Assembly: GCF_000299395.1 (NCBI RefSeq)
Contig: NC_018656.1
Location: forward strand, 124,001 to 188,000
Direction of reading: 5' to 3'
Length of the DNA stretch: 64,000 bases
Source of the DNA: Candidatus Nitrosopumilus sediminis
GTDB lineage: Archaea > Thermoproteota > Nitrososphaeria > Nitrososphaerales > Nitrosopumilaceae
Shown one piece after another: positions 47,328-48,969 of the stretch. Under the pieces are notes generated by a model. It made no database searches. It was not told the DNA's origin and was given only the letters and a program-made list of their open reading frames with translations. Made by a program: the position numbers and the translations under genes. Numbering within the stretch: position 1 is the stretch's first letter; the number at the start of each line of letters is the position of its first letter.

Positions 47328-48119
47328 TTAAAAGTTACCCAAAGTCTTTTGTTTTTTTTCATCCCAAATTAATTCCTGCATGCCAAGTTGCATTCTCAAA
47401 GAATTTGCAGTATCTGGACCAAATCCTTCAAAGTGATTGTTTGCCATTACCATTGCAAGTGGAATGTTTTCTATTTTTTCTAGTTTTTTTGCCCAACTTG
47501 AAATAAGACTGTCTTTGTTTTTTATAACTTTACCAAATTCTGAATCTGGTATAGAACGATCTCCAATCAATCTAATGTATAGATAGTCTGATGTAATTGG
47601 CATTGGATTGTCCACTCCTATAACTTCATTCCATACAAGACAGTGTTTATTTTGTTTCAGATATGTGATTGCATCTTCTGAAAACCAAGATTCATGTCTT
47701 CCTTCAATAGGATACATAAAATCATTAGGAAGTAAATCAAAAAGTTCCCCTAATCTTGGTTTTGCCTCTTCAAATGACAATGATGGAGGCAACTGTAAAA
47801 CTAGAGCTGAAACTTTTTCATAAATTGGAGAAAGAGAAGCCAAAAATGAAAAAACTTCTGAATTTACCCTATCTAATCTCTTTTCATGTGTGATAATTGA
47901 TGGAAATTTTGCTGTAAATCTAAAATGTCTTGGAGTATCTATATTCCACCTCCTTACAATCTCCTGAGCTGGAATTCTATAAAACGTGGAGTTTATTTCA
48001 GTAATTTCAAAAAGCTGAGAATAATATTTTAGCCATTCTGAACTCTTTAGATTTCTTGGATAAAATGTTCCTGACCATCCTTGATAGCTCCAACCAGTAC
48101 ATCCAATCTTGATATTCAT
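47328..48119 (-). CDS. DUF72 (YecE-like) protein
   Basis: ATG 48119 gives MNIKIGCTGWSYQGWSGTFYP, the standard DUF72 N-terminus; an upstream start at 48215 would read through the structured intergenic element and is rejected. Further motifs: FEITEINSTFYRIPA, FRFTAKFPSIITHEKRL, MYPIEGRHESW and NNHFEGFGPDTA. TIM-barrel family of unknown activity. Confidence 0.93.
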   Translation of the reverse strand: MNIKIGCTGWSYQGWSGTFYPRNLKSSEWLKYYSQLFEITEINSTFYRIPAQEIVRRWNIDTPRHFRFTAKFPSIITHEKRLDRVNSEVFSFLASLSPIYEKVSALVLQLPPSLSFEEAKPRLGELFDLLPNDFMYPIEGRHESWFSEDAITYLKQNKHCLVWNEVIGVDNPMPITSDYLYIRLIGDRSIPDSEFGKVIKNKDSLISSWAKKLEKIENIPLAMVMANNHFEGFGPDTANSLRMQLGMQELIWDEKKQKTLGNF

Positions 48120-48150
48120 GGTATGGTTTGATTTAATACATTTTAAAAAT

Positions 48151-48256
48151 TTGAAAGCTGACCGGCGCGGATTAACCTTTACACAGTCCTGCTGTATGCT
48201 CAGACCGGTAAACAATTACCAGTATTCAGACAATAGGAAATTGTGTCAGCTTTCAA
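48151..48256. ncRNA. Strongly structured intergenic element, unidentified
   Basis: A 106-nt element closed by a perfect 12-bp inverted repeat, TTGAAAGCTGAC (48151-48162) with GTCAGCTTTCAA (48245-48256). Inside are three perfect short hairpins: ACAG-TCCTG-CTGT, GGTAA-ACAA-TTACC and ACAAT-AGGAA-ATTGT, giving a multibranch fold. ACCGG near the 5' end can also pair with CCGGT inside, an alternative pairing. It is much richer in G+C than its flanks. No tRNA, 5S, SRP or TPP-switch features were recognised. Strand is undecided. A small transposon relic with 12-bp ends is the main alternative. Confidence 0.55.
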
Positions 48257-48303
48257 TTGTATTATACACAGTTATCAAATAAAAAGGAGATCCTAATCCT
48301 TAT

Positions 48304-48969
48304 TTAATCCGATATTTTTGTTAATTTCTTTGCTTTTGCAAATACTGCAGACCACTGAGTCCAGGAAAGCCTACCTGTCTGAGTGTTTTGTTTTGATGGA
48401 TGATATGATGTTAGAATTTTGAAATTTTTGTATTTGAATAATTTGCCATGTCCAAACTTTTCTGGTTTTACACCATACAATTTACAAGTTGCATCATATG
48501 CTATTTTTCCAAGACAAAGTATAGTTGTAATGTTTTTTAGAATTTCCTTTTCCTGCTCTAAAAATCCAAAACAAGTTTCCATCTCTTCTCTTGTGGGTTT
48601 GTTTTGAGGCGGGGCACATCTTACTGCTGCAGTAATGTATGCATTGTATAAGAACAAACCATCGTCTGCAGTATGACTAGTTGGAATGGATGCAAATCCG
48701 TGCTTGTACATTACTTTGGCAAGCCAGTCTCCTGATGAATCTCCTGTAAACATTCTACCTGTTCTGTTTCCACCATGAGCTGCTGGAGCTAACCCAACAA
48801 TCAGTAATTTAGCCTTGATATCCCCAAATCCTGATAGGGGTTTACCATAATATTTCTCCTCTTTGAATCGTTTTACCTTATTTTTTGCAACATCTCTGAT
48901 ATACACTGATAATCTGGGACACTTTTGACATCTGGCAATTTTTTTGTTTAATGATTGAATTGTCTTCAA
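48304..48969 (-). CDS. Uracil-DNA glycosylase, family 5 (UDGb)
   Basis: A 221-aa Fe-S glycosylase removing uracil and other deaminated bases. CQKCPRL and the later CAPPQNKPTREEMETC provide cluster Cys. The motif GLAPAAHGGNRTGRMFTGD with Ala rather than Glu/Asp at the catalytic position is the family 5 signature, and SYHPSKQNTQTGR is motif 2. Confidence 0.92.
   Translation of the reverse strand: MKTIQSLNKKIARCQKCPRLSVYIRDVAKNKVKRFKEEKYYGKPLSGFGDIKAKLLIVGLAPAAHGGNRTGRMFTGDSSGDWLAKVMYKHGFASIPTSHTADDGLFLYNAYITAAVRCAPPQNKPTREEMETCFGFLEQEKEILKNITTILCLGKIAYDATCKLYGVKPEKFGHGKLFKYKNFKILTSYHPSKQNTQTGRLSWTQWSAVFAKAKKLTKISD

Follow-up and report, generated by a model that had tools for sequence, protein, structure and literature searches.

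Among the described RNAs that come close to the one reported here is Tan1 (Thalassoarchaea ncRNA 1), a 229-nt RNA detected by RNA-seq in Euryarchaeota MG-II (PMC5069720). Lineage-specific candidate structured RNAs, many of which are thought to be trans-acting, were also found by covariation by Weinberg et al. 2010, whose text names no motif from Nitrosopumilus or Cenarchaeum (PMC2864571). The archaeal SRP RNA (RF01857) is, in turn, a stand-alone structured RNA. In this work, we describe a structured RNA, called type A, from Candidatus Nitrosopumilus sediminis. Like Tan1, it is structured, apparently stand-alone, without an assigned function and found in a marine archaeal lineage (PMC5069720); Tan1 was detected by RNA-seq whereas type A RNA is known from sequence, with far more comparative evidence, and the two are compared by description only. 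With the candidates of Weinberg et al. 2010 it shares both its discovery by covariation and the lack of an assigned function (PMC2864571), but most of those motifs are held in Rfam, where type A RNA has no match. It is also a third of the length of the archaeal SRP RNA and does not match RF01857. The new family belongs, broadly, with other lineage-specific stand-alone ncRNAs, and it was previously uncatalogued: it lies outside Rfam, and comparison with known families turned up no homology. A search of the open-access literature returned no report of this RNA.

Results

The window analyzed is a stretch of 64,000 nucleotides (contig NC_018656.1, positions 124,001 to 188,000). Type A RNA lies at window positions 48151-48256, between two genes named from Pfam, UDG (48304-48969) and DUF72 (47328-48119), both encoded on the strand of the RNA. 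Its sense is the minus strand (48256-48151, about 105 nt). The minus strand folds at -36.3 kcal/mol (z -4.5) and the plus strand at -31.7 kcal/mol (z -3.3), each relative to 200 dinucleotide shuffles; all 200 fold worse than the real element on either strand, and the minus strand folds better than the plus strand. Covariance model R2 matches the element end to end, at exactly 48151-48256 on the minus strand, with 104.3 bits. The perfect 12-bp closing stem that an earlier note had described is present (TTGAAAGCTGAC / GTCAGCTTTCAA at 48151-48162 / 48245-48256). BLAST searches returned one strong copy in the genome itself and about 45 clear relatives in the Nitrosopumilaceae.

The same note had also judged the element to be neither a tRNA nor any other recognized RNA, and rightly so. 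With Rfam 15, no family reached its gathering threshold at the locus in the window or at the loci of ten divergent members, only tRNAs being matched elsewhere, and a relaxed-threshold scan of the locus gave only matches far below gathering scores. The archaeal SRP RNA model RF01857 had no match at the locus; the SRP RNA of this genome lies elsewhere (104.7 bits). Type A RNA bears a faint resemblance to archaeal SRP RNA in GUUUACC-GGUC.

Covariation was analyzed first of all in alignment A1, which contains 38 relatives aligned on sequence only. In A1, 96.3% of cells are paired, compared with 34-40% in slid versions, and double changes occur in 42 cells, compared with 11.3 in shuffles. Covariance model R1, built from A1, recovered far more divergent members and yielded a 96-sequence alignment with compensatory double changes in 27 of its 34 pairs, closing stem included; this larger alignment is fitted to the model, and A1 is the cleaner test, though less variable. 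Parsimony on a tree of these RNAs gave double changes in about 83 cases and pairing-preserving single changes in 150, against 61 breaks. Compensatory changes beyond those of the controls, the mark of a structured ncRNA, were thus found, and the covariance model of Nitrosopumilaceae homologues that the earlier note had proposed reveals them strongly.

The predicted fold is a three-way junction composed of a closing stem (P1), a short hairpin (P2) and a long arm (P3), all given here on the minus strand. P1 is a covarying helix of 10 conserved bp (5′ arm, 48245-48254; 3′ arm, 48153-48162), so that 10 of the 12 stem pairs in the window are the conserved ones and the window species has two extra pairs. 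Nine of the 10 P1 pairs show double changes in the 96-sequence alignment, the arms changing in step (GCUGAC/GUCAGC to GCCAAC/GUUGGC). P2 (ACAAU-UUCCU-AUUGU, 48230-48244) is conserved in sequence, with 93.8% of cells paired and double changes in three of five pairs in the same alignment; because it varies little, it is less well supported than P1 and P3. P3 (48169-48220) includes UUUAC (48208-48212) paired with GUAAA (48178-48182) and has double changes in 15 of 19 pairs in this larger alignment (A2); all seven double-changed pairs of the close-relative alignment are within this arm. Its tip, GC-AUACA-GC (48191-48199), has the family consensus GC-NUAC-NN-GC, with the UAC conserved at 95-100% among 42 representatives. 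Among unpaired residues, conservation is highest at this UAC, in the P2 loop and, within the P3 internal loop, on its AG side. Conservation across the family is absent from the linkers, which are the longest unpaired stretches.

Three internal hairpins had been proposed earlier, one of which, ACAAU/AUUGU in RNA sense, is part of the conserved fold as P2. The other two are not conserved. ACAG/CUGU has 73% of cells paired, no covariation, and does no better than shuffles. GGUAA/UUACC fails across the wider family despite 89.5% of cells paired in close relatives, as two of the three inner pairs scored are open in 51 and in 65 of the 95 sequences, and it is outcompeted by the long-range pairing of UUUAC with GUAAA. 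Alignment likewise confines the suggested ACCGG/CCGGT alternative pairing to the window species and a few neighbors. Pairing between the P2 loop and AGGAU was likewise rejected, since in the alignment the two sides do not change in concert within the genus.

Upstream of the RNA, a TATA-like box TTTTTATT (48278-48285, minus strand) is preceded by a GATC element (48289-48292, minus strand). In nearly all of the 96 copies a T-rich TATA-like box lies about 26 nt upstream of the stem with GATC ahead of it; T occupies positions -27 to -25 in 85-93% of these copies, and in close relatives the box is found 25-28 nt before the stem. The distance from the box to the base of P1 is that of an archaeal promoter. 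GATC recurs in most type A and type B copies (type B is described below) and is possibly a BRE-type element. GATC+TTTTTATT is not a motif of promoters in general: it had four matches in the genome and its reversed control also four, and by eye the three tRNA genes of the window do not carry it. Downstream, many copies have a T-run after the stem; in the window it directly follows P1 (48145-48149, minus strand) and is a putative terminator. Transcription would begin at the 5′ G of P1 and end at this T-run, and the product, about 105 nt long, would be stable, both of its ends being closed off in P1. A second TATA-like sequence, TTTTTAAAA, overlaps the T-run (window 48142-48149, minus strand) and precedes the DUF72 start codon (48119) by about 26 nt, a spacing found in the type A copies of this genus. 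It is therefore probable that DUF72 is transcribed from a promoter of its own, as a leaderless mRNA.

Using R2 at E <= 0.01, homologues were found in 103 of 250 Nitrosopumilaceae genomes (about 40%), belonging to six of the 22 genera. Outside the family, there was no match in a 398-genome sample of the phylum, and a 400-genome class sample searched with R1 agrees; E-values are rough and the search filters lose weak matches, which makes these absences provisional. Records with the exact 5′ pattern were mostly Nitrosopumilus and Nitrosarchaeum MAGs, and the exact core patterns had no match in a viral contig collection. A pattern match in a Methanospirillaceae record (L150) was rejected as a homologue. 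The RNA was not detected in most genomes of the family, among them complete genomes from this genus (G088 and G108), so either it is dispensable or the models miss copies. Three loci with DUF72 and no known RNA gave nothing under unfiltered model scoring. Most genomes with the RNA have one copy, and some have three to five diverged copies.

Weaker model matches disclosed about 21 related RNAs, named type B. Their P1 differs (GAAGACAGA/UCUGUCUUC), their core is that of type A (UCGUGUUAC...GCAUAC...GUAAAGGAU) and their promoter is of the same kind (GATCTGCTTTATTATT). Alignment A3, of type B and divergent type A sequences, covaries, the P2 region being misaligned for type B. Type B is often beside type A and divergently oriented: at one locus (L180) both lie between UDG and DUF72, with type A toward DUF72 and type B toward UDG, and at another (L009) both are upstream of DUF72, also divergent. 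One probable type B copy of the window genome lies outside the window (contig 1362130-1362228; 27.4 bits, E 0.026). That copy, in locus L203, sits inside a gap, unusually long at about 1.6 kb, that has no ORF of at least 80 aa. In genus g16, a divergent group (L185, L186 and L187) has GACACAACAUAGAGGCCUGUGUUGUU replacing P2 and a changed P3 tip; it is possibly a third subfamily.

In this genus, DUF72 usually follows the RNA directly, and the opposite side is occupied by UDG or other genes. In other genera it adjoins unrelated genes, away from DUF72. The copies provide no clue to function through their gene context. Small Lrp/AsnC-like proteins, named from sequence by eye, are encoded near several copies (L083, L088, L093, L095, L099, L109, L135, L136 and L137); such genes are common in the group and their proximity may be due to chance. 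In G155 (contig C21, 35374-36160), DUF72 is split in two and carries one in-frame stop.

Discussion

Taken together, these results indicate that the 106-base stretch is almost certainly a real stand-alone structured RNA gene. Of the options that the earlier note had raised, it is the stand-alone ncRNA that is strongly supported: the predicted promoter keeps a fixed distance, base changes compensate for one another, the gene context varies and the paralogues have diverged. The gene thus has a predicted promoter of its own and is independent of its neighbor.

That note had also considered a cis-acting leader or switch of DUF72. In this genus the RNA commonly stops about 32 nt short of the DUF72 start codon, as such a leader would. 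However, (i) in G153 the RNA is intact (L020, 116.8 bits) and the DUF72 that follows it (L020 1640-2520) is a pseudogene full of stops, (ii) at two further loci (L018 and L034) DUF72 is missing and the RNA kept, (iii) a genome search found the RNA absent from the DUF72 loci of genera such as g15, (iv) in other genera the RNA is beside other genes, and (v) it has its own predicted promoter and likely terminator. Neither the steady position nor the co-conservation with a gene that characterizes a riboswitch or mRNA leader was observed. These observations contradict the leader, which is already refuted as a general explanation and which we regard as scarcely credible. G117 shows the opposite situation: its copy at the usual site beside DUF72 (L050 2048-2153) is degenerate, with 31 bits, and a copy elsewhere (L124) is sound, which represents the birth and death of copies.

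A relic of a MITE-like mobile element with 12-bp inverted ends was the other option. Inverted ends are indeed present, locations differ among lineages, and some genomes hold up to five copies. A mobile element would be expected as dispersed near-identical copies flanked by target-site duplications, and the copies found are few and diverged: in the window genome, where further copies had been suggested as a check, there is one strong BLAST copy plus the probable type B copy, not many dispersed ones. Besides, most genomes have a single copy and many share the same location, the promoter is conserved and travels along with the RNA, covariation affects all helices, internal ones included, with the arms covarying instead of decaying, and by eye no target-site duplication is evident at the window copy. 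A MITE-like origin is therefore unlikely.

As to function, the stand-alone RNA might be a drifted guide for rRNA modification, of box C/D or H/ACA-like type. Diverged multi-copy small RNAs in an archaeon would suit such a role, and some members contain CUGA. Nevertheless, the 96-sequence alignment has no conserved boxes of the C/D kind (RUGAUGA near the 5′ end and CUGA near the 3′ end), the CUGA is lost in other genera, and the 3′ ends are P1 sequence without the conserved ACA that an H/ACA RNA would have (ACA/ANA three bases from the 3′ end). Complementarity to rRNA, which H/ACA guide pockets would require, was no better than in shuffles: the longest match to the organism's own rRNA is 13 nt, the shuffles having a mean of 13.3 and 69 of 100 being as good. 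The guide-RNA reading is already largely refuted, and we consider it improbable.

We favor, with even confidence for and against, a mode in which type A RNA is bound by protein and works in trans, as a regulator or a scaffold. This mode fits best with short conserved loops set in a defined fold and with diverged paralogues of the same core. The candidate protein site would combine the P3 internal loop with the GC-NUAC-NN-GC tip, as few other unpaired residues are so well conserved in paralogues that otherwise differ; the conserved P2 loop may touch a partner, and type B, whose core is the same, would be a sister RNA. The main rival is a base-pairing regulatory sRNA in which the P2 loop, containing UCC, or the P3 tip would be the seed for mRNAs, the fold serving mainly for stability. 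A stand-alone gene with diverged paralogues agrees with this rival too, as does the presence of two short, unpaired and conserved segments, the P2 loop and the tip. The longest unpaired stretches, the linkers, are nevertheless not conserved across the family, and we deem a base-pairing sRNA rather unlikely, if worth serious attention. As for the family as a whole, it is tempting to speculate, with somewhat less than even confidence, that types A and B are two branches of one Nitrosopumilaceae-specific family, and that this family forms a new kind of ribonucleoprotein or regulatory system in archaea. Its copies would be duplicated, relocated and specialized, with the P3 core and the GATC-TATA promoter kept in common.

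The Nitrosopumilaceae are among the most abundant archaea of the sea, where much of the ammonia oxidation is their work. With covariation behind it, the family lends itself to modelling and to an immediate search of existing metatranscriptomes, and cultured strains gain a defined target for testing RNA-based regulation in the Nitrosopumilaceae.
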